A DNA stretch of 41,424 bases from a virus. Of this stretch, positions 1,900 to 30,141 are shown piece after piece. The notes under the pieces are model-generated. The model was not told the origin of the DNA. It was given only the letters and a program-made list of their open reading frames with translations, and ran no database searches. The stretch is taken from positions 1-41,424 of IMG/VR virus record IMGVR_UViG_3300046454_000154. One strand, given 5' to 3'. Made by a program: the position numbers and the translations under genes. Every line of letters begins with the position of its first letter. The first letter of the stretch is position 1.

Positions 1900-2560
1900 T
1901 ATTTTTTGTCAATCCGAAAAAAAGCCCCATACTTGCATTGTTGTTCAGCGCGAACAACGGTTCTTTGACAGCCCGATTTTTTTAAGTAGCACCAGCGAAA
2001 GCATCCGTTGAGAGTAGCGTCCGATTGTGAAATCCGAAAATGCACTCAGTCAGGAAAATCCCGTAAGACACTGACGAAACGAAATGCAAGCTCCCAGTAC
2101 AGGGAGCAGTCAGTAACTTAGGTGAAAGAAAAATATCAGGTACGTTACCCACAGTTAGTCAACAAGGGTTCAACAGTTATACGGTTGTGAAGCATGGTGA
2201 ATATAGAAAGCCCATGCCGTTCTTTTTCGCACACAGCAGACGGAGAGAGTAACAATCGGAGAGAGTTCAGGATTGAATGCCAGCCATTGAGCAGAGAGCA
2301 TTATTCAGACAAATGAGATTGATAAGAGATTGGTTGAATTGACCGACTAACGATATACCGTCCTTTACAGGGACGGAGGTGCGACAGGGGTTGAGTACCA
2401 TGACGGAGTGAACAATAGTAGCTCCGGCAAAAGGAGAAAAGAAAAAGCCGAATACGGACGGCTGCGAATAATAGTAACAGCCGTTCGTAAGTTTCGCATT
2501 GGCAAGCGAAGCCTGATGAGCCTGCACAAATGAATTGTGCAGGGTTAGCATTGCCCGATA
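1900..2560 (+). ncRNA. Candidate large structured noncoding RNA (~660 nt)
   Basis: No plausible gene lies between 1852 and 2586, yet the stretch is dense in hairpins: 1940-1946/1952-1958 (7 bp, loop AGCGC); 2049-2053/2071-2075; 2090-2095/2102-2107 (GCTCCC/GGGAGC); 2192-2197/2212-2217; 2358-2363/2371-2376 (CCGTCC/GGACGG); 2404-2408/2422-2426; 2453-2464/2478-2489 (12 bp with one G-U); 2493-2497/2506-2510; and 2521-2529/2535-2543 (perfect 9 bp, loop ATGAA). GGCAA at 2501-2505 could also pair with TTGCC at 2551-2555 around the last hairpin. Size and phage context recall the ornate large RNAs GOLLD and ROOL, but I cannot match their consensus from memory. A weak promoter-like TATTTTTTG sits at 1900-1908. 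Exact ends and strand are inferred; no U-tract terminator is seen. Confidence 0.6.
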
Positions 2561-2586
2561 TTTATAAGCGTAAATAAAAAATCAAA

Positions 2587-3330
2587 ATGAAAAAAGTAAA
2601 AATTGAGATTAAGAACAGGTGGACAGGAAAGGTATTGTTTGAATACGAAAGTGAAGACAATACAATTAAGAAAACATTGCTGCAAGCGATTGCAGAGGGC
2701 AGCAACCTTCGTGGCAGCAACCTTAGTGACAGCAACCTTAGTGACAGCGACCTTAGTGGCAGCGACCTTAGTGGCAGCGACCTTAGTGGCAGCAACCTTA
2801 GTGGCAGCAACCTTAGTGGCAGCAACCTTCGTGGCAGCAACCTTAGTGGCAGCAACCTTAGTGACAGCAACCTTAGTGGCAGCAACCTTAGTGGCAGCAA
2901 CCTTAGTGGCAGCAACCTTCGTGGCAGCAACCTTAGTGACAGCAACCTTCGTGACAGCAACCTTAGTGACAGCGACCTTAGTGACAGCAACCTTTCACCG
3001 ATACGAGATGATTTCTTTTTAGTGCTATTGCGTGGCATAGCGGAGATTCCAAAACTAAAAAAGAATGTCATTGAAGGAAACATAAACGGTTCGACATACG
3101 AAGGAGAGTGTGCATGCTTGAGTGGAACATTGTTTAATGCAGCCACAGAGAATAATGGAAAGCAGGAAGCCGAAAGGAAGGGAATGATATTAAGTGTTCG
3201 TGATGCGAACAGACCTATCGAAAGATTCTTCTTAGGAATTAAAAAAGGAGATACGCCAGAGAATAATCAGTTCTCAAAAATTGTTCTCGAATGGATTATT
3301 CAGTTTGAGTTTTTCATAAGCAGCAAATAA
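2587..3330 (+). CDS. Pentapeptide-repeat protein with conserved phage C-terminal domain
   Basis: 247 residues. After ~38 residues come 20 consecutive pentapeptides S-(N/D)-L-(S/R)-(G/D), matching A(N/D)LXX with the central Leu invariant, as in right-handed quadrilateral beta-helices. The C-terminal ~110 residues (IRDDFF, then GSTYEGECACLSGTL, then GDTPENN) form a domain I recognise from other phage pentapeptide proteins. Some family members (Qnr, MfpA) mimic DNA and bind gyrase; whether this one does is unknown. Start context is AAAAAATCAAAATG. It is the first gene after the structured-RNA region. A long reverse-strand open frame over the repeat is a by-product of the repeat. Confidence 0.85.
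   Translation: MKKVKIEIKNRWTGKVLFEYESEDNTIKKTLLQAIAEGSNLRGSNLSDSNLSDSDLSGSDLSGSDLSGSNLSGSNLSGSNLRGSNLSGSNLSDSNLSGSNLSGSNLSGSNLRGSNLSDSNLRDSNLSDSDLSDSNLSPIRDDFFLVLLRGIAEIPKLKKNVIEGNINGSTYEGECACLSGTLFNAATENNGKQEAERKGMILSVRDANRPIERFFLGIKKGDTPENNQFSKIVLEWIIQFEFFISSK
2701..3000 (+). repeat. Tandem 15-bp repeat, 20 units
   Basis: Exactly 20 in-frame units of 15 bases, core AGCAACCTTAGTGGC, with variation limited to a few positions (AAC/GAC, AGT/CGT, GGC/GAC). Near-identical codons across all units indicate recent expansion or ongoing recombination rather than an old repeat kept only at protein level. Confidence 0.95.
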
Positions 3331-3337
3331 TTCGCGC

Positions 3338-3781
3338 ATGGTACAGATAATCTATGTCGGCAAACGAATGACGACAAAGCATCAGCTTGCTTACTTCTTT
3401 GAGAAGCCAGATAAAACAGAGTTCGGTAGATTGAAGCTCCAGTTCAAGGTTGAGATTGGTGAGATACTTGACTATGATGAAGAAGAGCGCAACATTACTC
3501 CGACAAATAAAATGCACGACAATCCAGCTACCATTGTTCAGTGGACAACAGAGAGCATGAGTGCAGAGAAAGATTACAGGCTTCGAAACAGAAAGAAGCA
3601 GCACACAATCAGCAGCAGGATAAGAGAAGTGATAGCGGAGGTAGCTGCGCTTCCTTTATCAGCATACGATAGGATGCAGATTGCTCACCAGATTCATGAA
3701 GCGATTCGTGATAAGGTTCTGCTTAATAGTTTCGCTGAAAAGAAGAAGCCAGCGAAGAAGAAAGGAGTGAAGAAGAAATGA
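3338..3781 (+). CDS. Hypothetical protein with lysine-rich tail
   Basis: 147 residues starting ATG 8 bases after the pentapeptide gene's TAA. The N-terminal half is beta-rich (VQIIYVGKRM, then RLKLQFKVEIG); a helical region follows, and the tail is almost all lysine and alanine (KKPAKKKGVKKK), suggesting nucleic-acid contact. No family recognised. It overlaps the next gene by 4 bases. Confidence 0.6.
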   Translation: MVQIIYVGKRMTTKHQLAYFFEKPDKTEFGRLKLQFKVEIGEILDYDEEERNITPTNKMHDNPATIVQWTTESMSAEKDYRLRNRKKQHTISSRIREVIAEVAALPLSAYDRMQIAHQIHEAIRDKVLLNSFAEKKKPAKKKGVKKK

Positions 3782-4298: not shown

Positions 4299-4630
4299 AT
4301 CTTGTATTAAAAGCTATCTATGTATGTGTGACGGCTGGCAATCGCTGGGGCAAGGGATATACAGCATCAGAAGCGAAGAAGAATGCAGGGCTTACAAACA
4401 GTGCTACAAGAAAAGCGATTGAGCATTATGTTCAAGCTGCCGTATTCAATTCAGAAGGTATGACAGATGAAGAGTTTAATAACCTTCACGATTGCGTAAC
4501 TGCAAATTCAATTGATGGGTCTCCTAAATATTACGACCAAGACAGAACAGAAGAAGACACGGTGATGATTAAGAAATATCATGTAGGCTGGTTGATGGTG
4601 GAGAAAAATATAAAGGAGACCAAGAAATGA
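4295..4630 (+). CDS. Hypothetical protein
   Basis: 111 residues from ATG 4295, chosen over an upstream in-frame start at 4268 because it overlaps the lipoprotein TGA as ATGA and has AAAGGGGGTG just upstream. Mostly helical, with an internal TASEAKKNAGLTNSATRKAIEHY segment that could be a helix-turn-helix. No family recognised. Ends in a 4-base overlap with the phosphatase gene. Confidence 0.55.
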   Translation: MNLVLKAIYVCVTAGNRWGKGYTASEAKKNAGLTNSATRKAIEHYVQAAVFNSEGMTDEEFNNLHDCVTANSIDGSPKYYDQDRTEEDTVMIKKYHVGWLMVEKNIKETKK

Positions 4631-5085
4631 ATAAACTTGGATTAGTTCCGCTTTCAAACTTTGCTCAAGTGCTTCCTGATATTTACAGATGCGCACAGCC
4701 GATATACAAGTATCAGTATGACTGGCTTCGTGATGTGCTTGGAATTAAAATGATAGTTGACTTGAGAAAAGAATCTGACATTGATGTGAATTATTTTGAT
4801 AGCGTGATTCGCATTTCAGTTCCAGACCATGAAGTGCCTACAATGAAGCAGGCACAAGAGTTCATGCAGTTAGTGAAGAAGAATAAGCAGCCGATGCTTA
4901 TTCACTGTGCGCATGGACATGGAAGGACATCTACGTTCTGTGTGCTTGCAAGGATAGCAGTTGGATGGAGTGTTGAACGTGCAATTTCTAATGAGAGAAT
5001 AAAGTTTCACTATCAATTCAATCATCCTGCGCAGGAGAAGTGGCTGATGGATAATTTCGGAAAGGAGGCTGGCAATGCTAATTGA
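4627..5085 (+). CDS. Dual-specificity / tyrosine-type protein phosphatase
   Basis: 152 residues, close to a minimal DSP catalytic domain. The signature HCxxGxxRT is intact as HCAHGHGRTS (nucleophile Cys94, Arg100). An upstream PDHEVP supplies a plausible general-acid Asp67, and the N-terminal part (DIYRCAQP, then MIVDLRKESD) matches the DSP core (iyRs.qP, vidLR). Such enzymes form a phospho-Cys intermediate and remove phosphate from proteins, nucleotides or RNA 5' ends. The substrate here is unknown; candidates are host phosphoproteins or a nucleotide intermediate. All key residues are present, so it is probably active. Confidence 0.85.
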   Translation: MNKLGLVPLSNFAQVLPDIYRCAQPIYKYQYDWLRDVLGIKMIVDLRKESDIDVNYFDSVIRISVPDHEVPTMKQAQEFMQLVKKNKQPMLIHCAHGHGRTSTFCVLARIAVGWSVERAISNERIKFHYQFNHPAQEKWLMDNFGKEAGNAN

Positions 5086-5353
5086 TACGACAATCGGAAC
5101 AGGAGACGGAGACCTGAACAAATCACAATACGTTGATATGTTCATTCAAATCTGGATGCTGATAAAAACAAACCAGCCGTGTGTGAAGGAAGACGTGACG
5201 ACAGTGCATAAGTGGACGCTGTTATCGTGGTTCGATAATGTTGAATATTTGAGGATAGGAACGAGCAGGGTATTCAACAGGAGAATACATGAACAATTAA
5301 TGACCAGTGAGATTCCGTTCTTGCAGCAGGCACAAACCTATAAACTGAATTAA
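5075..5353 (+). CDS. Hypothetical protein
   Basis: 92 residues starting at an ATG inside the phosphatase gene (11-base overlap), with GGAAAGGAGG upstream as an unusually good Shine-Dalgarno for this genome. Helical with several Trp residues (FIQIWMLIKTN, HKWTLLSWFDNV). No family recognised. Confidence 0.55.
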   Translation: MLIDTTIGTGDGDLNKSQYVDMFIQIWMLIKTNQPCVKEDVTTVHKWTLLSWFDNVEYLRIGTSRVFNRRIHEQLMTSEIPFLQQAQTYKLN

Positions 5354-5354
5354 G

Positions 5355-5621
5355 ATGGGACAGACTAAACAGAAAGCTCCGGCATTAAAGCCATTCGACT
5401 TCTGGAGAGACAATCTTCTTGCTGGATATTTTCAATTGACAGCAGAAGAATTGCAAACCAAATTTGTTGAATGGAAGCAGAAGCAGAAACCAGAATGGTA
5501 CACTTACTATTATGGAGTTCGCGCAGTGCTATCCTTCTTAGGAGATAAGGACGGATTGAGCGCAACGCATGAGGCAGACCAGTTCGATGATATATATGCA
5601 GTATTAAAACCATGTTTTTAA
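5355..5621 (+). CDS. Hypothetical protein
   Basis: 88 residues, starting one base after the previous TAA. Rich in Trp and Tyr (FDFWRDNLLAGYF, KPEWYTYYYG) and predicted helical. No family recognised. Position suggests cotranscription with its neighbours. Confidence 0.55.
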   Translation: MGQTKQKAPALKPFDFWRDNLLAGYFQLTAEELQTKFVEWKQKQKPEWYTYYYGVRAVLSFLGDKDGLSATHEADQFDDIYAVLKPCF

Positions 5622-5635
5622 AAAGAATGTAGAAG

Positions 5636-5953
5636 ATGTCCAAGAAAGAATTAATCAGGAGGGCTAACAAGGTGATGCGGACTGTGAATGTGTCAAAGGT
5701 GATAGCAGACCACGTTGTAGGTAAGAAGCACAGCATGAAGCACAGGAAGCGGATAGGTGTGAGCGTGATGGTAATTGGAGTTTCTATTGCTCATTTTGCA
5801 GCGAATGGCAATATTGTCACTTCGATTGTTGGTGACTTGATTGGATATGCAATTCATGGAATTGGTTTAATACCTTTTGTCGAATCAGAAGAAATAGAAT
5901 GTGACCCGAAAACTAAAATATGCACTAAGAAAAAACCAAAGGATAAAAAATAA
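5636..5953 (+). CDS. Small membrane protein
   Basis: 105 residues: a basic N-terminus (about 40 residues with many Lys and Arg), hydrophobic stretches around 41-56 (IGVSVMVIGVSIAHFA) and 60-82 (IVTSIVGDLIGYAIHGIGLIPFV), then an acidic/Cys segment and a lysine-rich tail. It looks like a one- or two-span inner-membrane protein. A holin is conceivable, but no endolysin is nearby, so I do not assign one. Confidence 0.6.
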   Translation: MSKKELIRRANKVMRTVNVSKVIADHVVGKKHSMKHRKRIGVSVMVIGVSIAHFAANGNIVTSIVGDLIGYAIHGIGLIPFVESEEIECDPKTKICTKKKPKDKK

Positions 5954-6006
5954 GGTTAAGCAGAGTACCTATAAACGAAGCGCAAAATTGTAAATCTAAT
6001 AACGAT

Positions 6007-6336
6007 ATGTTTACAAACTTTCAAGTGAGGTCTGATGAGGTTGAACAAATCTCAACAGAGAATGCAATGTATTTGCAAAAGGGTGATGTGGTGCTGGTAA
6101 GGTCAGCTAACGTTCCGAATTATGGAGACCATTTCATAGTAGTAACAGGTAAGCCGATTCAGAAGCAATGGGGTATGCGTCCGCAGACCATAGAGTTCTT
6201 CACGGAGACGGCAAAGGAAGTGCTGGATAACTTCTTGCCGTATAATGGAGTTGTGGCTTTGAAGTTGAAGCCGTCCATTAAAGAGGCATTCCATAAGCTG
6301 CATGGAATGTGCAGCAGAAGGGAGGAGATGAAATGA
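6007..6336 (+). CDS. Hypothetical protein upstream of isonitrile synthase homologue
   Basis: 109 residues. A beta-rich middle (YLQKGDVVLVRSANVPNYGDHFIVVTGK) resembles a small barrel-like fold, and a helical end follows. Its TGA overlaps the start of the isonitrile synthase homologue by 4 bases, so the two are probably translated together. No family recognised. The 53 bases before it hold nothing obvious. Confidence 0.55.
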   Translation: MFTNFQVRSDEVEQISTENAMYLQKGDVVLVRSANVPNYGDHFIVVTGKPIQKQWGMRPQTIEFFTETAKEVLDNFLPYNGVVALKLKPSIKEAFHKLHGMCSRREEMK

Positions 6337-7235
6337 ATCCACAATCACATTTGATAGTAGATGTGTTCGAACGGTTCATGATGTCGAAGACACCGATAGA
6401 CCAGTTCGAGCAGCAAGGCAGAAGCCTTCTTATGGAAAGAGTAGATGGGTTTGTTCAACAGAATAAACCCGTTCCGTTTTATATGCTTGGCTTCCCGTTC
6501 AAGAGCAGCAATAAAAGAGATAAAGTGCTTGGAGACTTGCCAGACATGGCAGAGCAGAAGACGCTGGAAAACTTTGCAAGGTTTGACGGAGAAATTAAAA
6601 AGGTATATTCAAACGGAGTTAAGATAAGCATGGTGAGTGATGGCTATGTATTCAATGACTTACTTGGAATAGAAGACAGGACGGTGGAAGATTATAAGAA
6701 GACTTCAATGGAACTTGGACAGGATGCAAAAGCTCCAGTACAGTTCTTAGACCTGCGAGACTTTTATACAAGAGATATTCCAGAAGCCAGAAACAAAGTG
6801 ATGGAGCAGTTCGGGATAACATCAGAAAAGCTGGAGTATGAAATTCTTTTCAATCCAGATGTCAACTACTTATATAGAGGCATGAATATTTTTATGATTG
6901 AAGAGCTTGCAGTAAGAACGTTCCCGTCAAGGCATCAGTTGAAAGCAGCAGCAAAGAAGATGGTGCGAGAGATGATGTTGAGAAATGAAGCGTATTCAAA
7001 TCTTGCTCGAAGAGAGTTCGGAGACCAGATTAGATTGTCAATGCATCCGTCAGTGAACAACGGACAGAAGTATTCCTTCAAGCTGATTGAAGGAAATGCG
7101 AAGTATAGTGCATGGCATTCAGCAATCCTTTTCAAAGGAGCAGAAATGGAAACGATTCATAGGATAGATGCGGAGCAGGCAGGTTATGAATTGGTTTACG
7201 AAAATGGAAGACCTTATTATTTCAAATCAAATTAA
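6333..7235 (+). CDS. Isonitrile (isocyanide) synthase homologue, PvcA/DIT1 family
   Basis: 300 residues from ATG 6333, chosen because it overlaps the upstream TGA and follows GGGAGGAG; an upstream start at 6309 is less likely. Family landmarks occur in order: FPFKSSNKRDKVLGDLPDM (54-72), KISMVSDGYVFNDLLGI (97-113), RLSMHPS (234-240), AWHSAI (260-265) and GYELVYENGRPYYF (284-297). Known members (PvcA, IsnA) convert the amino group of Tyr or Trp to an isonitrile using ribulose 5-phosphate as carbon source. Length is near that of bacterial PvcA. The usual PvcB-type Fe/2-oxoglutarate partner is not adjacent; the only such enzyme here is the TET/JBP-type protein 16 kb away. Assignment rests on recalled motifs. 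Confidence 0.82.
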   Translation: MNPQSHLIVDVFERFMMSKTPIDQFEQQGRSLLMERVDGFVQQNKPVPFYMLGFPFKSSNKRDKVLGDLPDMAEQKTLENFARFDGEIKKVYSNGVKISMVSDGYVFNDLLGIEDRTVEDYKKTSMELGQDAKAPVQFLDLRDFYTRDIPEARNKVMEQFGITSEKLEYEILFNPDVNYLYRGMNIFMIEELAVRTFPSRHQLKAAAKKMVREMMLRNEAYSNLARREFGDQIRLSMHPSVNNGQKYSFKLIEGNAKYSAWHSAILFKGAEMETIHRIDAEQAGYELVYENGRPYYFKSN

Positions 7236-7245
7236 AAAAGATACT

Positions 7246-7584
7246 ATGAAAAAATTAATCGGAACGGTAACGATAGGTTACAATAATGATGGCAAGCCGA
7301 ATCTTGCAGTGTATAGAGCGGAGAAATATCAGGTAGGCATGGGTGAGCTTGACAAGCTAAAAGAAATGACAGCAGCAAACAATCCAAAGGATGCACAGGC
7401 GGTCTGTCATATTGCCCAGACGGTTCTTGCAGGCTATTTCAACAAGGTATCAGAGCTTGAGCTTGCGGACAGGGAGAAGTATGAGATTGTGCCAGAGATT
7501 AAAACGTGTGAGAAATATCCAGACGGCAAAGTGCAGGTCTGTGTAATTGATTTCTACTTTCAGGAGGTGAAGGTGAATGGCTGA
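7246..7584 (+). CDS. Hypothetical protein
   Basis: 112 residues from ATG 7246; longer in-frame starts inside the preceding gene look unlikely. Opens with MKKLIGTVTIGYNNDGKPN, a beta hairpin, followed by helices and a closing strand (VCVIDFYFQEVKV). It starts 10 bases after the isonitrile synthase homologue and may be cotranscribed with it. No family recognised. Confidence 0.6.
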   Translation: MKKLIGTVTIGYNNDGKPNLAVYRAEKYQVGMGELDKLKEMTAANNPKDAQAVCHIAQTVLAGYFNKVSELELADREKYEIVPEIKTCEKYPDGKVQVCVIDFYFQEVKVNG

Positions 7585-7604
7585 TTAAAATAAATTGAGT
7601 GATG

Positions 7605-7671
7605 CCATGTGCAGAATCTATGCTGACGAAAAGTTTAGTTCGAATAAGAGTGCGTCAGCATAGACACATGG
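7605..7671 (+). ncRNA. Long hairpin RNA or regulatory stem-loop
   Basis: An 18-bp interrupted stem with no mismatches: CCATGTG (7605-7611) pairs with CACATGG (7665-7671), and CTATGCTGACG (7618-7628) pairs with CGTCAGCATAG (7653-7663). The two helices are joined by a 6/1 internal loop and capped by a 24-base loop. It lies in the 123-base gap between 7584 and 7708 and has no T-tract, so it is not a standard terminator. It could be a small RNA, a processing site or an operator. Confidence 0.6.
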
Positions 7672-7707
7672 TTTGTTAGTAGTTGAATTTAAAAATCAAA
7701 AAGTAAA

Positions 7708-8109
7708 ATGGAAAAGAAAATTGTAGTTGCATTAAGTGAGGAACAGCTAAAAACAATTAGCGGCTCTTTGAACATGATTAATGATGCAAATAAGAATGCA
7801 ACAAAAAAAGGAAAGAAAGAAGTGGAAAGACTTGAGCATATCCAGAAGAGCATGGAGAGCGGAAACGGAATGGCTATTCATGTAACGATTGGAGGAGGCA
7901 AAGAAAAGCCAGAAGTAAATTCAGACCAGTCAGCGATACTTGAAGAAGTGAAGCAGGAGAAAGTGAAAGCAGATGCTACGCTTGCAGCCTATGAACTGAT
8001 AGATGGCAAGATTGAAGATGTTGTTCTGACTTTAATCACAGCAGCCAGAGAGGTCGGAGCGAAGTATGACATTCACAATAAAATTGTGGACTTGATACCA
8101 GAAGACTAA
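7708..8109 (+). CDS. Hypothetical coiled-coil protein
   Basis: 133 residues, start context AAATCAAAAAGTAAAATG. A short N-terminal strand (KKIVVAL) and helix are followed by a glycine-rich turn (VTIGGGK) and a long charged helical region. The first ~25 residues resemble those of the next gene, so the two may be distant paralogues. No family recognised. Confidence 0.6.
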   Translation: MEKKIVVALSEEQLKTISGSLNMINDANKNATKKGKKEVERLEHIQKSMESGNGMAIHVTIGGGKEKPEVNSDQSAILEEVKQEKVKADATLAAYELIDGKIEDVVLTLITAAREVGAKYDIHNKIVDLIPED

Positions 8110-8153
8110 GAGTAAACAATTAACAGTACTAACTTTATAAATAAAAAAATCAA

Positions 8154-8555
8154 ATGATAAAAATAGAATTGACAGCAGCAGAGTTCTTGCTTTTGAGCAA
8201 GGCGTTAAATTTGGTAGCCAATAATTCAAATGTGATTATTGATACTATGGAAGAATCAGCACACAAAGCGAAGGCAGAACTAAAAGCTGCCAAGAGTATG
8301 AAAGATGCTGCGCTTGGATTAGCGGAGGAATTGAAGCTGGGACACCATGCGAAATCTAAACGTTTCGATGAAGAGACCAGCAATCAATTCACGAAATGGG
8401 AGAGTAAGATTGCAGAGCTTGAAGAGATAGGTGCGATGATGAAAAGAGTTGCGCCAGAAATCGAGAGCTTAAAGATGAACCTGAAAGCGCAAGCAAGGAA
8501 TCTGAAAGCAGAGTATTCAGACTTGGATATTCTGGACAGAGAAAGCGATAATTAA
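8154..8555 (+). CDS. Hypothetical coiled-coil protein
   Basis: 133 residues, start context AAAAAAATCAAATG. Begins with a strand (IKIELTAAEF) and helix like the preceding gene, then a long Ala/Glu/Lys-rich helical region typical of a coiled coil. Same length as its neighbour. No family recognised. Confidence 0.6.
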   Translation: MIKIELTAAEFLLLSKALNLVANNSNVIIDTMEESAHKAKAELKAAKSMKDAALGLAEELKLGHHAKSKRFDEETSNQFTKWESKIAELEEIGAMMKRVAPEIESLKMNLKAQARNLKAEYSDLDILDRESDN

Positions 8556-8575
8556 TTTAAACAAAAAAAATAGAT

Positions 8576-8860
8576 ATGCCACAGCAATTTGTAGAGGCTC
8601 ACGTAATGCATTCACTTGCTCCTAACAAGTATAGGATTCCGACAAAGGAAGACTTGTATAAATTAAAAGTAGGAGACAGTGTGAAGGTTTGTGTAGAGAA
8701 TGAATGCTTCTGGGTTGAGATAACAGAGTTGTCAAAGAAGCTGGTGACAGGCAGAGTTGATAATGACATGGTGTTCACCGATGAGCATGGATTGAAATAC
8801 AATGACACGGTGAACTTTGCGAAGAAGCATATAATAGAAGTTGAACAATTAAATAAATAA
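8576..8860 (+). CDS. Small DUF2314-like protein
   Basis: 94 residues. The core LKVGDSVKVCVENECFWVEITEL, then GRVDNDMVFTDEHGLKYNDTVNF and KHIIEV, follows the pattern G-D-x-V-K ... E-x-F-W-V-x-I-T ... G-x-V-D-N-x ... G-D-x-V-x-F ... I, as in small beta-rich DUF2314-type proteins also found in phages. Function unknown; the match is by motif memory only. Confidence 0.55.
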   Translation: MPQQFVEAHVMHSLAPNKYRIPTKEDLYKLKVGDSVKVCVENECFWVEITELSKKLVTGRVDNDMVFTDEHGLKYNDTVNFAKKHIIEVEQLNK

Positions 8861-8865
8861 ACGGA

Positions 8866-9444
8866 ATGAAAAAAGTAAGTAAAAGCAAAATGAAAATACC
8901 TTTTAAGTCTAAACTTAAAGGGATAAGAAGTATTGTAAAACGCAACGCAGTATTCAAAGCAATGGGAGACCAGAACAAAAGAAAGGAGATTGCTTATGAT
9001 GCGCTGATGTTGATTGTTGATGATAAGATAGAATATACATCAAGTGGGTACTGGGACAGAGGGCTAAGTAATATTGCACACTGGGCATACAATGCAAGAG
9101 ACCTTCAAAAGAAACTTCTTAAACTTGAAGAGACTTGTGATGTTTGTCAGAGGGGTCTGTTTATGCTTTCCACAATCAGATGTGGAAATACTGTTGACGG
9201 TTCTGAGTCGAGCTTAGAAAAAGGAAGCCCAGAAACAATACAGGGATTTACAATGGATGAATTTAAAAAAGCAGAGCAGGTTTATGAGGGATGGACTGAT
9301 ACATCAAGACGACATCCATATACATCAGGAACAAACGAACGCAAAGCCAACATCTGCTGCAATGTGATTAAGAATGGAAAGTTTTTATCAAGTGATATTA
9401 CTGACTATCTGAAAAAATGGAATATCAAAATTCCAAGCGCATAG
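8866..9444 (+). CDS. Hypothetical protein
   Basis: 192 residues with a very basic N-terminus (KKVSKSKMKIPFKSKLKG) and several cysteines in the middle and end (CDVC at ~122-125, CC later). Ends in TAG, one of the few TAG stops here, and is in the same frame as the next gene 13 codons downstream, so readthrough would fuse them; I see no reason to expect it. No family recognised. Confidence 0.55.
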   Translation: MKKVSKSKMKIPFKSKLKGIRSIVKRNAVFKAMGDQNKRKEIAYDALMLIVDDKIEYTSSGYWDRGLSNIAHWAYNARDLQKKLLKLEETCDVCQRGLFMLSTIRCGNTVDGSESSLEKGSPETIQGFTMDEFKKAEQVYEGWTDTSRRHPYTSGTNERKANICCNVIKNGKFLSSDITDYLKKWNIKIPSA

Positions 9445-9483
9445 CCGAAAGCGTATAACGTAGGCAATAATCAAAACAATGTT

Positions 9484-10707
9484 ATGAAAAGAAAGATGAC
9501 AATTAAAGAGCTTGTCGAAGCTCTCAAATCGCAACAGCTAAGAAAGAAAGACTTGGTTGTGCCAAACGATTATCTATTCATGGAGAATGGAAAGATGAAA
9601 ATTAAAAACGTTGCCAACAGTAATGAGCTTTCAGAGCTATTGTTGAATACGGGAATCAGCACAATGTCTAATGTGTCAGGGCATCCAGAAATGGTTCGCA
9701 CTTTATCATTAGATATTCTTGGTATTGCACATTCGCAGATTGCATCGAAGTTGCAGATACCAAAGTTGTATTATGAAAAGCTGATGCAGGAAAAGAATAT
9801 TCCTTTGCTTGACCAGAACGTGAATCATTGGTTGAGACAGCAGGAACAGAACTACCTGCTACGCACGTTCATTGACAAAGAAGAAGAGACAGGAATCATG
9901 AGGGCAATGCTGTCAGACCGATTCAAGGTGATTGACAACTTCGATGTTCTCATGGCTGCGCTTGAAGCAATACAGCAGAGCGGAGTTGAGGTGAACATTG
10001 TTGATGCGGATTTGACTGACAGTAAAATGTATGTCAGGTTTGAAGCACCAAGCATTGTAAAGGAGAGTAAGGAATTGTTGAGCCGATACAAAGTGCCGCT
10101 TGATGGAGGTGATGATGGTAATTCAGGAATTGCAGCAGGCTTTATTCTTACGAACAGTGAAGTAGGTTCAGGAACGTTTACAATCGCTCCGAGAATAATT
10201 GTGCTGGCTTGCAGAAATGGAATGACCATTACGAAAGACAGCTTTAAGAAAGTGCATCTTGGTGGAAAGCTGGAAGAGTATTCAGAGATAAGCTGGAGTG
10301 AAGAAACAAAGCAGAAGAATCTTGAGTTGATTGTAGCCCAGACGAAAGATGCGGTGAAGACTTACATCAGTCCTGAATATCTTGGAAGAGTTGTATCGCA
10401 TCTGGAAGAGAATGGTACGAAGAAGCTGGAGCATCCGATGGATGCGATTAAGAATGTGAGCCGTGAGTTTGCTTTCAGTGAAGAGAAGGAGAAGCGAATA
10501 CTTGACTACTTTATTTCAGGAGCAGACAGCACACCATTCGGAATTGCACAGGCGGTAACGTTCTATGCACATAAGGATGCGAATGCAGATGAGCAGTATG
10601 AGCTTGAGAAGGTATCAGTAGCAATCATTGAGAATGCTAAGACGTTCGATAAGCCAATGGTTGAGAGAAGAAAGAAGACTGATTCGAAAAGTTTTCTTTT
10701 GAACTAA
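9484..10707 (+). CDS. DUF932 (phage/plasmid-like) protein
   Basis: 407 residues. Segments such as GHPEMVRTLS, LRTFID ... MRAMLSDRFKVIDNFDVL, FILTNSEVGSGTFTIAPRIIVLACRNGMT and the later FGIAQAVTFYAHKDAN are the core of the DUF932 / phage-plasmid-like family, common in phages and mobile elements and of unknown biochemistry. Length is typical. The gene is followed by an intrinsic terminator at 10732-10765, so it closes a transcription unit. Confidence 0.85.
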   Translation: MKRKMTIKELVEALKSQQLRKKDLVVPNDYLFMENGKMKIKNVANSNELSELLLNTGISTMSNVSGHPEMVRTLSLDILGIAHSQIASKLQIPKLYYEKLMQEKNIPLLDQNVNHWLRQQEQNYLLRTFIDKEEETGIMRAMLSDRFKVIDNFDVLMAALEAIQQSGVEVNIVDADLTDSKMYVRFEAPSIVKESKELLSRYKVPLDGGDDGNSGIAAGFILTNSEVGSGTFTIAPRIIVLACRNGMTITKDSFKKVHLGGKLEEYSEISWSEETKQKNLELIVAQTKDAVKTYISPEYLGRVVSHLEENGTKKLEHPMDAIKNVSREFAFSEEKEKRILDYFISGADSTPFGIAQAVTFYAHKDANADEQYELEKVSVAIIENAKTFDKPMVERRKKTDSKSFLLN

Positions 10708-15710: not shown

Positions 15711-16000
15711 AATTAAAAATATCAGAAGGCGTTATAGGAGAAGACTTGTATGTTGCTTTTGGGATAAGTCAAGAAAGAAATGAGCAGCTATTGGATGGCG
15801 TTCAGGCAGTGGTTGATAAAGGTTTTGAAGCAGCAAGAAATGGTAAGCCGTATAGTATTTGCATGGCTCTTTCAGAGATAGGTGATTATTGTGAAACAGA
15901 TGAAGAATTGGCTTATGCTATGTTCACTTTTTCTGGTAATATACATCGGCTGTTTGATTTGAATACGCCAGACGTTTCTCATCCTCGAAAAGAAATATGA
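15707..16000 (+). CDS. Hypothetical protein
   Basis: 97 residues in ATGA overlap on both sides, immediately upstream of a glycosyltransferase. Mixed alpha/beta with an acidic C-terminal half (ALSEIGDYCETDEEL). No family recognised. Confidence 0.5.
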   Translation: MKLKISEGVIGEDLYVAFGISQERNEQLLDGVQAVVDKGFEAARNGKPYSICMALSEIGDYCETDEELAYAMFTFSGNIHRLFDLNTPDVSHPRKEI

Positions 16001-16626
16001 AGCAGCCATACTTCTCAATAATAATCCCAAGCTATCTCGGAGCTTATGCAGGAGCAGCAGAGAATAGAGAAGAGAAGCTGCGAAGAGCGGTACGTTCCAT
16101 TCTTGGTCAGACATTGAAAGCTAATTCAGATGAAGACTTTGAAATAATTTTTGTTTCAGATGGATGCGACAGGAGCTATGAAATAATGGAGCAAACGTAT
16201 GGAGAGCTTGCTTATGTTTATCAAATCCCAAAGCAGACGAAGTGGAGCGGAGCAGTAAGAAACTTCGGCATAGAGCAGGCAACAGGAAAGTACATAGTGT
16301 ATCTTGATACGGATGATAAGTTCGGAGAAAATCACTTGCTGAATATTTACAGGGAGTTAAAACTTGCAGCAGAGCCAGAATGGGTGTTCTTCAATGACTA
16401 TGTTCACAATAAGAAGACGGGCTTTGTTGAACGGGTGTGTCACATGAACAGGCAGCATCAGTGTGGAACATCCAATATCGCGCATAAGGCACAGCTAAAG
16501 GTGCGATGGGGTGACGGATATTTGCATGACTTCTTTTTCATAAAAAAACTTCATCGGTATTCTTATAAAATAATAAAGGGAGCAGAATATTATGTGTGTC
16601 ACATTCCAAATAAATATGATATATAA
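15997..16626 (+). CDS. Family 2-type glycosyltransferase (GT-A)
   Basis: 209 residues. Opens with FSIIIPSYLG, has the nucleotide-site SDG at 54-56, the WSGAVRNFGIEQATGKYI helix-strand, and the metal-binding DxD region YLDTDDKF (DTDD at 104-107). These are the landmarks of GT2 enzymes that transfer sugar from a nucleotide-sugar. The C-terminal half is shorter than in many GT2 proteins. It is the first of several sugar-type enzymes here. The acceptor could be a hydroxymethylated base in phage DNA or a cell-surface glycan. Confidence 0.85.
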   Translation: MKQPYFSIIIPSYLGAYAGAAENREEKLRRAVRSILGQTLKANSDEDFEIIFVSDGCDRSYEIMEQTYGELAYVYQIPKQTKWSGAVRNFGIEQATGKYIVYLDTDDKFGENHLLNIYRELKLAAEPEWVFFNDYVHNKKTGFVERVCHMNRQHQCGTSNIAHKAQLKVRWGDGYLHDFFFIKKLHRYSYKIIKGAEYYVCHIPNKYDI

Positions 16627-17030
16627 TGCCGATAGACTATAACAGATACCCTGCTAATTGGAAGACAGAGATACGACCAGCAGTTCTCAAGAGAGCAAAG
16701 AACAGGTGTGAAGCAGAAGGATGCGTATTTAAGAATGCAGAAATTGTGTGGAGCGTTAAGAAGTACAAAGCGGAGACGGTGTGGGTGCAGACACTTGAGG
16801 AGGCAATTGATGTTGCAGATAAGAGCGGATGGAAATTAGATAACTATTTGAAGGCTGGAATAATAAGAACAGTTAAAGTTGTTATTACAATTGCACATCT
16901 TGACCATGATGAAACTAATAATGATGTAACACTTGACAGACTGGCAGCGATGTGTCAGTTGCATCACCTAAGATATGATGCAAAAGAAAAGTATAGAAGG
17001 ATAATGAATAAATCAAAATCAAATGTTTAA
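16626..17030 (+). CDS. HNH endonuclease
   Basis: 134 residues. Cys28 and Cys33 (RCEAEGC) start the zinc site; the HNH core reads ITIAHLDHDETNNDVTLDRLAAMCQLHHLRYD, with His91 and His94, Asn98/99 and Cys110-x-x-His113-His114. The usual CxxCH is CxxHH here, which may still bind zinc. Such nucleases serve in homing, packaging or DNA repair. It lies between glycosyltransferases with a one-base overlap upstream, perhaps as a mobile insertion. Confidence 0.8.
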   Translation: MPIDYNRYPANWKTEIRPAVLKRAKNRCEAEGCVFKNAEIVWSVKKYKAETVWVQTLEEAIDVADKSGWKLDNYLKAGIIRTVKVVITIAHLDHDETNNDVTLDRLAAMCQLHHLRYDAKEKYRRIMNKSKSNV

Positions 17031-17349
17031 CGACCCAGATTCAAAACCATTACAGAAAGAAGTGAAATGTCCAGAGTGCGGATATAAAATGGGCAGAGTA
17101 GGATTACCAGAGAAAGGTAGAGTAGTTCCAAAGCCAAAGAAAGATGATATATGTCTTTGTTTTAATTGTGCAGCCATGCTTCGATTCAATGCAGATGAAG
17201 AGACAGTTCATACGGTGACAAAAGAAGAGTTGGCATCTTTGGATTCAGATACATTGTATTATGTACTTCATGAGCAGGCAACATTAAAAGCGTTTGCAAT
17301 GAAAAGGAAAATAGACTTGGCAGCGAAACAGAAAGCAGAGCTGAACTGA
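17023..17349 (+). CDS. Zinc-ribbon protein
   Basis: 108 residues. A four-Cys ribbon is visible: CPECGYKMG early (residues ~13-16), then LCFNCAAML. The remainder is helical (LASLDSDTLYYVLHEQATL). Start context is AAATCAAAATCAAATG, with an 8-base overlap upstream. Likely nucleic-acid-binding; function unknown. Confidence 0.6.
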   Translation: MFNDPDSKPLQKEVKCPECGYKMGRVGLPEKGRVVPKPKKDDICLCFNCAAMLRFNADEETVHTVTKEELASLDSDTLYYVLHEQATLKAFAMKRKIDLAAKQKAELN

Positions 17350-17350
17350 C

Positions 17351-17611
17351 ATGGGAGAAATAGCAGACGATATAATTGATGGCTTCTACTGCCAGATTTG
17401 CGGAGAAGTGATAGACGGAGAAGAGAGTGGTTATCCACGTTCTTGTGCTGGATGCGGTGGTGGTGATTGCGTTGACTTTGATTTTTCAGAATCCGATTCA
17501 GCATATTGGAGAGACGTTGAAAAGCATTTCGATTTCGTGAAGAAGCTAAGGCTTTTGAAGCAGATAAAAGAAAGACGGAGAAGAAGTAATACTTTCGCTT
17601 CCAGAATTTGA
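17351..17611 (+). CDS. Small zinc-finger protein
   Basis: 86 residues. CQICGEVIDGEESGYPRSC and CAGCGGGDC give two Cys pairs typical of a phage zinc ribbon; the C-terminus is basic (KQIKERRRRSN). Sits just before a GT-B glycosyltransferase. Function unknown. Confidence 0.6.
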   Translation: MGEIADDIIDGFYCQICGEVIDGEESGYPRSCAGCGGGDCVDFDFSESDSAYWRDVEKHFDFVKKLRLLKQIKERRRRSNTFASRI

Positions 17612-17615
17612 TATA

Positions 17616-18554
17616 ATGGGAAAGCATGTTAATATTATTTGCGCTAACAATGGAGTAGGGCTTAGTCAGGACAGAGAAATACTGAAAGCAATACTGACTG
17701 CGAACGGGCATCAGGTTTCGTTGAATGAAGGGATGCATCCAAAGGATATGCGCAAGCGATATGACCTGAATATCTTCTGTGAGCAACTGCATCCGCAATG
17801 GATAGGGCTTGCAAAAAAGAATATCATGATACCAAACCCAGAATGGTTCTTTGAGGGATGGATAAAATATCTGTATCGGTTCGATAAGATTTTCTGCAAG
17901 ACGAAAGACTGTGAAAGGATATTCATTGACTATGCGGACATGGAGCAACTTGTATATACTTCATTCACATCGCAAGACAGGTACTTGAAAGGAATTAAGA
18001 AGCAGAGAGTATTCAGTCACTTTGCAGGGAAGAGCAATCACAAAGGAACAGGAGCGATAGTTGCAGCCAGTAAGTGCAGAAAACTTCCGTTACTTAATTT
18101 GTATCTGACACCGAATGAAGGACAGCAGAAATATTATGTGAACAATACAGATGTGATTCTGCATACACAGAGAATCCCAGATGATAAATTCAGGCAGTTG
18201 CAGAATAGCAGCATGTTTCATCTGTGTCCCAGCGAATACGAAGGATGGGGACACTACATAAACGAAGCGAAGAGTATAGGAGCTATCATCATAACAACGA
18301 ATGCAGCACCGATGAATGAGCTTGTGACGAGCAGCTTTGGATTCGGAGCAGCCTATGACACTGTAACGAAACATCATTTAGCTCCGACATATAAAGCAAA
18401 TCCTGAATCTATTGCAGAGTGTATATTGCTTGCAGCAGAGATGAGTGACAGCGTAGCTAAGAAACTAAGCAGGAAGTCAAGAGAAGACTACCTGAACAAC
18501 GATAAGCAGTTCAAAGAAGTATTTATTAATCAAGTAAACCTTTTATTAAATTAA
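17616..18554 (+). CDS. GT-B-type glycosyltransferase
   Basis: 312 residues. The C-terminal domain carries the family 1/4 signature CPSEYEGWGHYINEA (204-218), followed by SIGAIIITTNAAPMNEL, equivalent to P-S-x-x-E-G-x-G ... E-A-x-x-x-G-x-P-V-I-x-T in GT4 enzymes. The N-terminal domain begins VNIICANNGVGL with a Rossmann-like start. It is somewhat short for GT4. The donor sugar cannot be predicted. Together with the GT2-like genes it suggests a multi-sugar product. Confidence 0.8.
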   Translation: MGKHVNIICANNGVGLSQDREILKAILTANGHQVSLNEGMHPKDMRKRYDLNIFCEQLHPQWIGLAKKNIMIPNPEWFFEGWIKYLYRFDKIFCKTKDCERIFIDYADMEQLVYTSFTSQDRYLKGIKKQRVFSHFAGKSNHKGTGAIVAASKCRKLPLLNLYLTPNEGQQKYYVNNTDVILHTQRIPDDKFRQLQNSSMFHLCPSEYEGWGHYINEAKSIGAIIITTNAAPMNELVTSSFGFGAAYDTVTKHHLAPTYKANPESIAECILLAAEMSDSVAKKLSRKSREDYLNNDKQFKEVFINQVNLLLN

Positions 18555-18560
18555 TCTATA

Positions 18561-19034
18561 ATGAAAAATGTATTTGTTATTTTATTGCTTGCAATTCTGG
18601 TATCAGGTTGCAGAAAAGATTGTGAGACAAAGCCAGAAGGTGCGGACACACACTTCTCAAAACAAGATTGGCTTGGCGAATGGGACTACACACTGTATGG
18701 AGATACGAATTATAAATTTCCGATTCACATTGGAGATTCGCATGTTGAAGGTTCTGTATTTATTTATTACCCGTTCACTTTAGGAATCTGCTACTTCATC
18801 GCAGAGAACGATGAGACATGGGACAATCTGACAATGCCAAGACAGATATTGTTAGGAAGCAATGCGCCAGATAACGGAATTGCATTGAGTGGAAGCCTTT
18901 GGTTGAGCAGCGATAAGGACACACTGTATATGGTGATACGGCAAGAGCAATGGTCTCAAGATTGTACGCAATGCATAACGACAACTTACTTATCGGACGG
19001 AGTTCATGGTGATACTTTAATCGCTGTACGATGA
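18561..19034 (+). CDS. Surface-type lipoprotein
   Basis: 157 residues with signal peptide MKNVFVILLLAILVSGC; Cys17 is the lipidation site. The next residues, RKDCE, fit the Bacteroidota lipoprotein export signal (a K-(D/E) pair just after Cys), predicting exposure on the outer-membrane surface. The mature part is beta-rich and ends with CTQC. A phage-encoded surface lipoprotein would suit receptor blocking (superinfection exclusion); that role is inferred. It sits amid glycosyltransferases. Confidence 0.75.
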   Translation: MKNVFVILLLAILVSGCRKDCETKPEGADTHFSKQDWLGEWDYTLYGDTNYKFPIHIGDSHVEGSVFIYYPFTLGICYFIAENDETWDNLTMPRQILLGSNAPDNGIALSGSLWLSSDKDTLYMVIRQEQWSQDCTQCITTTYLSDGVHGDTLIAVR

Positions 19035-19213
19035 ATAATACAAGAGTAAATGAACTTTGGTATTTCATTAATGAGCATCAGGATGAATCTGATTGTGCGC
19101 AGCAGATGAGTAAGTTATTTTCAATACCATTGAAGACTGCGAATGATTTAGTGCTTGATTGGGCTATGAATGCGAAAACTAAATTCGCGGAGCGATTGCA
19201 GAAATTCGAATGA
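19031..19213 (+). CDS. Small helical protein
   Basis: 60 residues, ATGA overlap at both ends. All-helical (NELWYFINEH, QQMSKLFSIPLKTANDLVLDW). No family recognised. Confidence 0.5.
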   Translation: MNNTRVNELWYFINEHQDESDCAQQMSKLFSIPLKTANDLVLDWAMNAKTKFAERLQKFE

Positions 19214-19365
19214 AGTGGACAGAGGCAAACAGGCAGATTATAAGAGACTGCATGGGAAGGCTGACAGCAGGACAGATAGCAATGAAGATGGGACTAAGGG
19301 TTCAGCAGATAGAAGGACAAATAATGTTATTAAAAAAGCAGAATAAAAATGGTGGAAGAGTTTAA
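19210..19365 (+). CDS. Small helix-turn-helix-like protein
   Basis: 51 residues (MKWTEANRQIIRDCMGRL onward), starting in ATGA overlap and running 17 bases into the methyltransferase gene. The segment LTAGQIAMKMGLRVQQIEGQI has the spacing of a simple HTH (a-x-Q-I-A-x-x-M-G-L ... V). Could be a small regulator; inferred. Confidence 0.55.
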   Translation: MKWTEANRQIIRDCMGRLTAGQIAMKMGLRVQQIEGQIMLLKKQNKNGGRV

Positions 19366-20041
19366 GTTTAATTATGATGAGCAGCCAGTCATTCTAAAGG
19401 TGAATGACTATCATCAGGCAAATGAAATCAGGAAGGAAGGAACATTCTACGAACATTGGATGCTTGACTTTATTAAGAATAATTTTTCAGGAGGTACATT
19501 CGTTGATGTTGGAGCGAACACAGGAAACCATACTGTGTTCTTTGCTAAGTTTTGCGATTGTAGAGTTATGGCGATAGAGCCAGTGCAGGAGAGCTATGAA
19601 CTACTTGAAGAAAATCTATTGCTGAATGGATTAATCAATGACGGAGTTTTCACTTTTCAAGTTGCGGTAAGTGATAAGCAAGGGGCTGGCAATATGCAGA
19701 TACCAGACCCAGACAAACAATCAATCGGAGGTGCAAAGCTCTTGGAAATTACAGGCGGTAGAGTTCAGGTCAATCCTCTTGATGATATTCTTGATGGTGT
19801 AAAAAAAGTGACGCTGATTAAGATTGACGTAGAGGGGCATGAACTGAAAGCGTTGTTCGGAGCAAGGCAAACGATAAGAAAGCATAAGCCAGAGCTATTC
19901 ATTGAGACTTTTGAAGAATGGACACTGGAGCTTATTGAAGAGCTTCTGAAAACAGAAGGGTATGAATTGAAGGAGCGTTATTGTCATGCGCCAGTATATC
20001 ATTTCAGCACTAACAAAAAAATCCCAGTAACATACAAATGA
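19349..20041 (+). CDS. FkbM-family SAM-dependent methyltransferase
   Basis: 230 residues. SAM-binding motif I is FVDVGANTGNHTVFF (51-65), motif II has MAIEPVQESYELLEENL (74-90), and later LIKIDVEGHELKALFGA is the FkbM hallmark (K-I-D-V-E-G-x-E). FkbM-type enzymes usually O-methylate sugars. In this neighbourhood it would cap a glycan on DNA or on the cell surface. Length is normal. Confidence 0.85.
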   Translation: MVEEFKFNYDEQPVILKVNDYHQANEIRKEGTFYEHWMLDFIKNNFSGGTFVDVGANTGNHTVFFAKFCDCRVMAIEPVQESYELLEENLLLNGLINDGVFTFQVAVSDKQGAGNMQIPDPDKQSIGGAKLLEITGGRVQVNPLDDILDGVKKVTLIKIDVEGHELKALFGARQTIRKHKPELFIETFEEWTLELIEELLKTEGYELKERYCHAPVYHFSTNKKIPVTYK

Positions 20042-20649
20042 ATATCTGGCATGGATGCTTCGATAATAATAATTTCGGAGACCACGTAGGGAACTATGTG
20101 ATTGAAAAGCTAACAGGAGAGAAGCCTAAGTTTGCGCATGACAGCAGGAAGGTTGACGAAGTGCATGTTTACTCCGGCAGTGTTCTGCAAGAGAGTAAGA
20201 GAAACTGGGTGATGTATGGCTGCGGATTCGGAGAAGACGACCAGCAGATACATGAAGCTCCTAAACAGATTGTGTCGGTCAGAGGTAAGTTGTCAAGAGA
20301 GATGCTATTGAAGCAGGGTATAGAATGTCCAGAAATATATTTCGACATCTGCGAGTACTTGCCTTCTATTTATTATCCGAAGATTAAAAAGAAATATGCA
20401 TTCGGATATATACCTCACTACAATGATTCTTCTATGGTGCTGCTTGCTGATAAAGAGAATGATATTATGATTGACATTTGTGGACAGCCAGAAGAAATTA
20501 TAACGCAAGCGTTGTCGTGCAATAGGATAGTGAGTAGTTCTTTGCATGGATTAATATTGGCAGACGTTTATAGCATTCCGAGAGACTGGAAAAGATTCGA
20601 TGGAGTAAGTGATTTTAAGTTTTACGATTATTTTTCTAAATTCAAATGA
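20038..20649 (+). CDS. Polysaccharide pyruvyl-transferase-like protein
   Basis: 203 residues, short for the family. NFGDHVGNYVIEKL near the N-terminus, SVRGKLSREMLLKQGIECPEI in the middle, FGYIPHYNDSS, and IVSSSLHGLILADVYSIP near the C-terminus match the family order (N-x-G-D ... R-G-x-x-S-R-x-x-L ... I-P-H-Y ... S-S-S-L-H-G-L-I-x-A-D-x-x-x-I-P). Known members add pyruvyl ketals from phosphoenolpyruvate to sugars. Part of an N-terminal half may be missing, so activity is uncertain. Confidence 0.75.
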   Translation: MNIWHGCFDNNNFGDHVGNYVIEKLTGEKPKFAHDSRKVDEVHVYSGSVLQESKRNWVMYGCGFGEDDQQIHEAPKQIVSVRGKLSREMLLKQGIECPEIYFDICEYLPSIYYPKIKKKYAFGYIPHYNDSSMVLLADKENDIMIDICGQPEEIITQALSCNRIVSSSLHGLILADVYSIPRDWKRFDGVSDFKFYDYFSKFK

Positions 20650-21895: not shown

Positions 21896-22144
21896 GTGAA
21901 GCCGTGTACTAAATTCCATAAGAGAGATAGCGTTGAGAAATTGATGTTCGGATTCGTCTATGGAATTATTACAAACTTACCATCAGTAACAAAGCAGCAA
22001 GCAATAAAAAACTTTCTTAGACAATTCCATATCGAGCATGAAAGTGTTCGTTCGCTTGAAACCACTTTCGATAGGATGAGGAAGGAGTTGTTCGAAGAGC
22101 AAAGAAGCAATGAAACAGAAGGCAGAGAAGAAAAAAAAGATTGA
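21896..22144 (+). CDS. Small hypothetical protein
   Basis: 82 residues from GTG 21896. Helical, with VEKLMFGFVYGIITNL and a charged C-terminus (MRKELFEEQRSNETEGREEK). It overlaps the first ParB-like gene by 35 bases, longer than most overlaps here. Start uncertain; no family recognised. Confidence 0.5.
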   Translation: MKPCTKFHKRDSVEKLMFGFVYGIITNLPSVTKQQAIKNFLRQFHIEHESVRSLETTFDRMRKELFEEQRSNETEGREEKKD

Positions 22145-28806: not shown

Positions 28807-30141
28807 ATGGTAAACATTACTTTTAAGAAAGAGAAAGTAAACCCAGTTTACCGACCGTACATCAATACAAACAATCCTTATGAAATTTACTGGGGAGGAG
28901 GAGGAAGCGGAAAGAGCTTCTTTATCGCCCAGAAGAATCTTATCAAATGCTTGGGGAGCAGAAGATATAGATTAGTGTTCAGCAGAAAGCAAGCGGTAGA
29001 TATACGCGATAGTCAATTCTTGTTGTTCAAAGATTTAATCGAGAGCTATAAGTTGCAGCCATTGTTCCATGTGAAAGAATCGAGCATGGACATCATGTGC
29101 GTGAATGGCAACAGTATGCTGGCAGCAGGAATGGACGACCCAGAAAAGATTAAGTCTATTCAGAAGCCAACAGACATCTGGATGGAAGAGATAACGGAGT
29201 TCGACTATGAAGACTTTGAGCAGTTCGATTTAAGGTTGCGTGGAGAAGCAGGAGAGACCCGTCAGTTGTTTGCCAGCTTCAATCCAATCAATGAAGAGCA
29301 TTGGGTGAAGAAGGAGCTATTTGATAAGCCGTTGAAGAATGGAAAGTATGTGCATACAACGTACAAGGATAATCAGCACATAGACCAGCGAGAGTATGAA
29401 GAGAAGCTGAACAGAATGTCTCCGCACAATCAGCGTATCTACAAGGAAGGCAAATGGGGGCTGCTAAGAACAGGGATGGAGTTCTACCCAGCGTTCGATG
29501 CGATGGTGCATGTGAGTGACAAAGCATTGTACGAGCCAGACAGTGCGATTCATCTGACGTTCGATATGAACGTGAATCCATACATGACGCTGCTTGTGAA
29601 TCAGATCAGGTTCATGCCAGAGACCAAGAGAGTGAGAGTGACACAGATTGATGAAATATGCTTACCTCACCCGTTGAATAAGACCCGATATGTGTGCGAG
29701 AGATTCATGCGAGACTATGCAGACCATAATGCAGGATTGTTCTACTATGGAGATGCTACCAGCAAGAAAGGAAACACAATGACGGAGGATGAGGTGAAGC
29801 ATGACTACGACATTGTAGAAAATGTTTGCAGAAGGAAACTGAACAACGGTTCGTTCAGAGTGAACAAAGCAAATCCCCCAGTACTGAAAAGGAAAGACTT
29901 CATGGATGATTTGTTCAGAGGCAATACAGCGATAGACTATTTGATTCATCCGAAGTGCAAGAACACAATCAATGACTATCTGTATTTGAAGGAGGGAGCA
30001 GACGGTAAGAAGTTCAAGGAGAAGGAAGAGAATAAAATCACTGGAGCTAAGTTCGAGAAGTACGGACATTGCAGTGATGCAGAAGAATATTTCTTTTGCT
30101 ATGCGTTCGAGAATATCATGAGACAGTACGAGCGGAGATAA
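28807..30141 (+). CDS. terL: Terminase large subunit
   Basis: 444 residues, normal length. Walker A GGGGSGKS at 30-37 (YWGGGGSGKSFFIAQ), Walker B region TDIWMEEITEF (122-132) with catalytic Glu, a coupling segment LFASFNPIN, and a C-terminal nuclease part starting around IHLTFDMNVNP (Asp near 252) and ending before KFEKYGHCSDAEEYF. It powers DNA translocation into the prohead and cuts the concatemer, with the small subunit and portal. All key motifs are visible. Confidence 0.95.
   Translation: MVNITFKKEKVNPVYRPYINTNNPYEIYWGGGGSGKSFFIAQKNLIKCLGSRRYRLVFSRKQAVDIRDSQFLLFKDLIESYKLQPLFHVKESSMDIMCVNGNSMLAAGMDDPEKIKSIQKPTDIWMEEITEFDYEDFEQFDLRLRGEAGETRQLFASFNPINEEHWVKKELFDKPLKNGKYVHTTYKDNQHIDQREYEEKLNRMSPHNQRIYKEGKWGLLRTGMEFYPAFDAMVHVSDKALYEPDSAIHLTFDMNVNPYMTLLVNQIRFMPETKRVRVTQIDEICLPHPLNKTRYVCERFMRDYADHNAGLFYYGDATSKKGNTMTEDEVKHDYDIVENVCRRKLNNGSFRVNKANPPVLKRKDFMDDLFRGNTAIDYLIHPKCKNTINDYLYLKEGADGKKFKEKEENKITGAKFEKYGHCSDAEEYFFCYAFENIMRQYERR

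Follow-up and report, generated by a model that had tools for sequence, protein, structure and literature searches.

A Divergent Isonitrile-Synthase-Family Gene in a Conserved Gene Cassette of Phages

Introduction

Can a phage carry a dedicated pathway to an isonitrile, and of what would such a pathway consist? The question is raised by a gene of the isonitrile synthase family in the IMG/VR virus record IMGVR_UViG_3300046454_000154, of which the whole analyzed stretch (41,424 nucleotides) is hereafter called the window. In the reaction of PvcA-type enzymes, amino acid nitrogen becomes linked to one of the carbons of ribulose 5-phosphate (PMC7949033), and isonitriles are metal ligands (PMC5974471). 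Phages are not known to have dedicated isonitrile biosynthesis, and the open-access literature that we searched contained nothing on phage isonitrile synthases and nothing on isonitriles in connection with cysteine dioxygenase.

General Features of the Phage Record

The window contains the phage genes Terminase_3, portal and a tape-measure-like gene (Table 1), and further virion genes were found downstream of the terminase and portal. Its terminase is nearest to those of Flavobacterium phages, and a Shine-Dalgarno-like motif was found at 7 of the 46 starts; because of these two features, a Bacteroidota host is likely, although it has not been shown. The synthase gene lies far upstream of the terminase on the same strand. 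This is compatible with the early-gene run proposed in a previous sequence-only reading of the locus, but does not establish it.

Table 1. Positions of the cassette genes and the main virion genes in the window.
Feature	Position	Strand	Remarks
Cassette partner, C-terminal domain of the cupin-fusion protein, cupin absent	6007..6336	+	109 aa
Isonitrile-synthase-family protein (DIT1_PvcA / IsnA type), divergent phage clade	6333..7235	+	300 aa; PF05141, 206 bits
Cassette partner, unnamed protein directly downstream of the synthase	7246..7584	+	112 aa; frame open from 7168, ATG at 7246
Terminase large subunit (Terminase_3)	28807-30141		phrog_3717
Portal	30427-32379		
Tape-measure-like gene	40677		

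Several other genes of the window are worth describing. A TET/JBP-family 2OG oxygenase gene (PF12851, 23285-24100) is directly followed by a TET-associated glycosyltransferase gene (PF20691, 24087-24824), and a ParB-like nuclease gene is located nearby at 22110. Together, they likely represent a cluster for glycosylation of DNA 5-hydroxymethylcytosine. A run of surface- or glycan-type genes (15997-20649) includes GT2 and GT1 glycosyltransferases, an FkbM methyltransferase (19349) and a polysaccharide pyruvyl transferase (20038). A pentapeptide-repeat protein is encoded at 2587-3330 and is visible in the DNA as a 15-base tandem repeat at 2638-3054.

Isonitrile Synthase Family Gene

The synthase frame is uninterrupted from its ATG (6333) to its stop codon (7235), and an alternative GTG start at 6309 would add eight residues. 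The encoded protein matched PF05141 (DIT1_PvcA) with 206 bits (E 1e-60) over positions 1-273 of the 273-position profile, for which the curated cut-off is 26.4 bits. The match is far above chance, and the protein is a full-length member of the family. The landmarks K57-S-x-N60, L69-P-D-x-x-E74, S102-D-G-x-V-F-x-D109, Y181-R-G, R234-L-S-M-H-P239 and W261-H262 follow one another in this order. In an alignment of 43 homologues, the window copy counted among them, all 21 invariant columns are kept in the window protein. These residues presumably form the active site.

Based on a sequence search of the PDB, the nearest solved relatives are PIsnA (9dhm, 9dh4) and PvcA (3e59). The AF2 model built from the 43 homologues had a mean pLDDT of 96.7 and matched the crystal structures of both enzymes (3e59, 9dh4, 9dhm) with a TM of 0.90-0.92 and E values down to 7e-26, including PIsnA structures with Tyr and with the isonitrile product. 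The next-best structures were cyclodipeptide synthases and tyrosyl-tRNA synthetases (TM 0.3-0.4). Thus, the protein has the predicted PvcA/IsnA fold with the family-invariant residues in place. The score against the NCBIfam equivalog for tyrosine isonitrile synthase (NF045653) was 112 bits, below its cut-off of 600. It should be noted that, in the absence of activity data, family and fold are the only basis for the proposed chemistry, and the biological role is undetermined.

These results confirm the assignment to the PvcA/DIT1 family made in the sequence-only reading, which rested on ordered landmarks and a normal length. The absence of a PF05141 match or the loss of active-site residues in a structural comparison with PvcA would have refuted the assignment, and neither was observed. 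The claim that a phage is a new setting for this family was also supported, the gene being unusual: no relatives of the window synthase were found among 50,697 GenBank phages (INPHARED), in PHROGs, or among the BFVD viral structure models at E < 0.001. Its matches in plasmids and genomes were mostly bacterial enzymes with about 25-38% identity. A profile of the phage-type synthases gave two positives among 395 Bacteroidota genomes, both of them long proteins of the bacterial type.

Two further relatives were noted. A contig binned as Woesearchaeota (L010; the binning is unverified) encodes a phage-like isonitrile synthase at 2224-3525, followed by a Dabb-domain gene. Another genome of the same phylum (L110, G502:C6:45961-46377) contains a distant match to the phage-type profile (62.6 bits) in an open frame of 424 aa.

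Three-Gene Cassette Shared by Phages

The sequence-only reading had not noticed the context of the gene and has to be amended here, as the gene sits in a conserved cassette. The same block was found in the same order in three other IMG/VR phage records, L009 (106.8 kb), L092 (95.6 kb) and L114 (72.1 kb): a cysteine-dioxygenase (CDO)-type cupin fused to an unnamed domain, the isonitrile synthase, and an unnamed protein of about 110 aa. The block of L092 holds two additional genes. None of the relatives was recovered when viral contigs were scanned with a single protein, and these three records were found by alignment-based scans with different motifs; hence, at least four phage records carry the cassette, and this number is a lower bound.

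The window synthase is 45-55% identical to the other three phage copies. The start of its gene is overlapped by four bases (ATGA) by the upstream gene, whose product corresponds to roughly the C-terminal third of the 315-341 aa upstream protein of the related cassettes. The identity was 43% over 105 aa with the 341-aa protein of L009 (residues 228-332), 49% over 101 aa with that of L092 and 43% over 91 aa with that of L114. The downstream protein shares 34% identity over 104 aa with its counterpart in the same place in L009 and 35% over 113 aa with that in L092. Neither small protein had a match in Pfam, PADLOC or NCBIfam, and the downstream one gave nothing significant in the PDB.

When all window ORFs were compared with the full records of L009 and L092 (L114 was not included), strong matches were confined to the cassette genes; beyond them, one glycosyltransferase and one further ORF matched weakly. 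The terminases also belong to different families, phrog_6681 in L009 and L092 and phrog_3717 in the window. Since the order of the cassette is kept between phages sharing almost nothing else, we infer that the genes of the block are transferred together and function together.

One rival explanation is that the synthase feeds a group into hypermodification of the phage DNA or glycans, as the sequence-only reading had suggested. In its favor, the window encodes the TET/JBP oxygenase, the TET-associated glycosyltransferase and more glycosyl-, methyl- and pyruvyl-transferases. However, these genes are located about 9-17 kb from the cassette and outside it. Furthermore, no TET/JBP match was detected in the two other cassette-bearing records searched (possibly fragments), and the DNA-modification genes of the window had no strong match in L009 or L092. 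The suggestion is therefore weakened, and we regard this explanation as very unlikely.

The possibility that the cassette is a defense system was rejected, since the only match in the PADLOC search was a weak one to mad2, for a methyltransferase in L092. A DSP/PTP-like phosphatase gene with an intact HCxxGxGRT motif is present in the window at 4627-5085; its link to the synthase was dropped, as no PTP was seen beside the cassettes of L009, L092 and L114. On a Burkholderia stagnalis plasmid (L006), a PTP gene lies between two isocyanide synthase genes. In addition, L009 contains at 19728-20528 an adenylosuccinate-synthetase-like gene related to phage genes annotated as "2-aminooxy adenylosuccinate synthetase".

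Cupin Partner

Where the upstream protein is full-length, its N-terminal part contains the motif WGxGxxSPVHGH and a third conserved His. In L114 the motif has diverged, but HxH is kept. The L092 protein matched Pfam CDO_I (cysteine dioxygenase type I) with 23.0 bits, at the cut-off, while those of L009, L114 and a Myxococcota MAG (L054) gave no Pfam match when searched singly. In this MAG, the synthase gene adjoins a cupin-fusion gene (5812-7972) among ordinary chromosomal genes. A profile of the four cupin copies matched CDOs in the PDB, 20 distinct sequences in all, with E values from 7e-5 to 1e-3, and three putative metal-binding His residues (H131, H133 and H206 in L009 numbering) are invariant in these divergent copies. 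Based on this remote match, the partner in the related records appears to be a CDO-type cupin with a putative 3-His metal site. Structure prediction from two sequences gave no usable model (pLDDT 31.6).

Searches for the fusion in cellular genomes found none in 395 Bacteroidota genomes (with a two-row profile), in 398 genomes of the Legionella phylum or in 294 genomes of the Planctomyces phylum, and the single positive among 46 genomes of the L054 phylum was the L054 copy already known. For most of these searches, the genomes examined included no positive control. The L054 pair itself may represent an undescribed bacterial two-gene pathway.

In the window, which may be an incomplete record, tblastn and profile searches of the whole sequence found only the C-terminal domain of the fusion. 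Upstream of 6007, the sequence in frame from 5947 has merely faint similarity to the end of a cupin domain. A Pfam scan of the neighboring ORFs from 4627 to 10707 gave no match to a TauD-type Fe/2OG oxygenase (PvcB). The earlier statement that no PvcB-type partner adjoins the synthase is thus correct, with the addition that the fuller cassettes have a CDO-type cupin instead of PvcB. Overall, no cupin, PvcB or transporter was identified beside the window synthase.

These data bear on another rival explanation, in which the gene came from a bacterium as a mere passenger, is decaying or without function, and has already lost its cupin. The missing cupin domain and the faint similarity before 6007 speak for it. 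On the other hand, the synthase ORF is uninterrupted and has lost none of the invariant residues, the cassette partners are conserved across a large divergence (34-55% identity), the GC content of the cassette (0.41-0.44) fits that of the phage (0.41), and the phage copies form their own clade without joining a single bacterial lineage (see below). This explanation is therefore unlikely.

Divergence of the Phage Synthases

The synthase tree included three phage copies, which grouped together with support of 100/84; with L010 and L054 they formed a group supported at 99/88. The long branches make the deeper joins unsure. The phage synthases did not branch with any single bacterial lineage and represent a clade of their own.

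C101, RSxAW, HPQ and PSHF, which hardly vary among the bacterial enzymes sampled, are altered in the window and sister phage copies, and the changed near-invariant positions of the phage clade are P52, C101, S218, W221, Q240, G248, S295 and H296. Canonical RSxAW is replaced by RNEA(Y/F) in the phage copies and L054 and by RGEAY in L010. In the phages and L010, Q240 is replaced by S/T, G248 by S and PSHF by PYYF; W221 is substituted by Y clade-wide, and the L114 synthase has MHNS and PYNF. Because these sites are near-invariant elsewhere, the substrate or product of the phage enzymes is likely to be altered, as inferred from sequence. For the same reason, the mention of Tyr and Trp in the sequence-only reading has to be amended: specificity for these amino acids should not be assumed, and it is possible that the substrate is neither.

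Membership in PF05141 is also no guarantee of an isonitrile product, because yeast Dit1, a member of this family, is reported to make N-formyl tyrosine and not an isonitrile (PMC7345447). It is possible that the phage protein resembles Dit1 in its chemistry or has put the PvcA fold to another use. Its substrate could be a different amine, that of another amino acid, of a modified nucleobase or of a sugar, or its product could be an N-formyl compound, and it might contribute to the modification of, for example, amino acids, tRNA or surfaces. This rival is supported by the clade-wide substitutions described above at W221, Q240, G248, PSHF and RSxAW and by the precedent that PvcA does not replace Dit1 in yeast (PMC7345447). 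The weak structural resemblance to TyrRS and to cyclodipeptide synthases suggests an amino-acid-binding scaffold. Against it, 21 of 21 family-invariant positions are kept, the model has the same fold as Tyr-bound PIsnA, and the oxygenase-type cupin partner parallels the PvcA-PvcB logic.

Proposed Role of the Cassette

Based on the above results, we suggest that a mobile small-molecule cassette of three genes is present in the window phage in shortened form. Its synthase would form an isonitrile (or N-formyl) product, which the cupin would oxidize in the full versions. We assign this reading a probability of about 0.6, the catalysis being inferred from family and fold. The synthase would attach the amino group of its amino acid substrate to C2 of ribulose 5-phosphate, with release of an isonitrile, which may hydrolyze to an N-formyl product or be replaced by one, as with yeast Dit1. 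In the full cassettes, the CDO-type Fe(II) cupin, standing in the place of PvcB, is predicted to oxidize the synthase product. The unnamed C-terminal domain and the protein of about 110 aa may assist the synthase, because both are retained in the window, which has no cupin. More speculatively, the product could be a metal ligand or an inhibitor of metalloenzymes, acting in the infected cell or on competitors, and would give the phage an advantage in infection or in competition with other phages or bacteria.

A bolder version is that a whole pathway to isonitriles, so far undescribed, is encoded by phages, most of them phages of Bacteroidota. It would consist of the divergent synthase, a CDO-type cupin replacing PvcB and two accessory domains or proteins, would be transferred as one unit from phage to unrelated phage and, during infection, would yield a new metal-binding isonitrile that inhibits metalloenzymes of the host or competitors. 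We consider this version less likely than not. If the enzyme works as suggested, some phages make their own reactive, metal-binding small molecule, and chemical warfare or host control would be exerted by a small molecule and not by a protein effector. The combination of the synthase with a CDO-type cupin would then represent a new branch of isonitrile chemistry, and the divergent active site may give access to new substrates.

Comparison with Known Systems

The likeness of the cupin to cysteine dioxygenase type I (PF05995) consists of the motif WGxGxxSxxHxH and the third His, at the positions of the metal-binding triad. The differences are the remoteness of the match (E 7e-5 at best), the long N-terminal part and the extra C-terminal domain. 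The substrate of the cupin cannot be inferred from this match.

The window synthase shares the Pfam family, the whole-length fold and the invariant residues with PvcA of Pseudomonas aeruginosa (PA2254; 3e59) and PIsnA (9dh4, 9dhm), which are L-Tyr/L-Trp isonitrile synthases. However, the structural-alignment identity is only 22-24%, several near-invariant positions are changed, and, unlike these enzymes, it is phage-encoded and has no PvcB-type Fe/2OG oxygenase beside it. Dit1 of Saccharomyces cerevisiae belongs to the same Pfam family but is a eukaryotic spore-wall enzyme.

In the PvcA-PvcB and IsnA-IsnB pathways (paerucumarin, rhabduscin and hapalindole), the synthase gene adjoins a gene for an Fe-dependent oxygenase, as it does in the full cassettes. 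The partner in the PvcA-PvcB pathway is a TauD-type Fe/2OG enzyme, whereas in the phage cassettes and the Myxococcota MAG it is the CDO-type cupin fused to the unnamed domain, and in the window this domain alone remains of the partner. Thus, the enzyme family is already known, and what is new is its setting in a phage and its partner, the CDO-type cupin.
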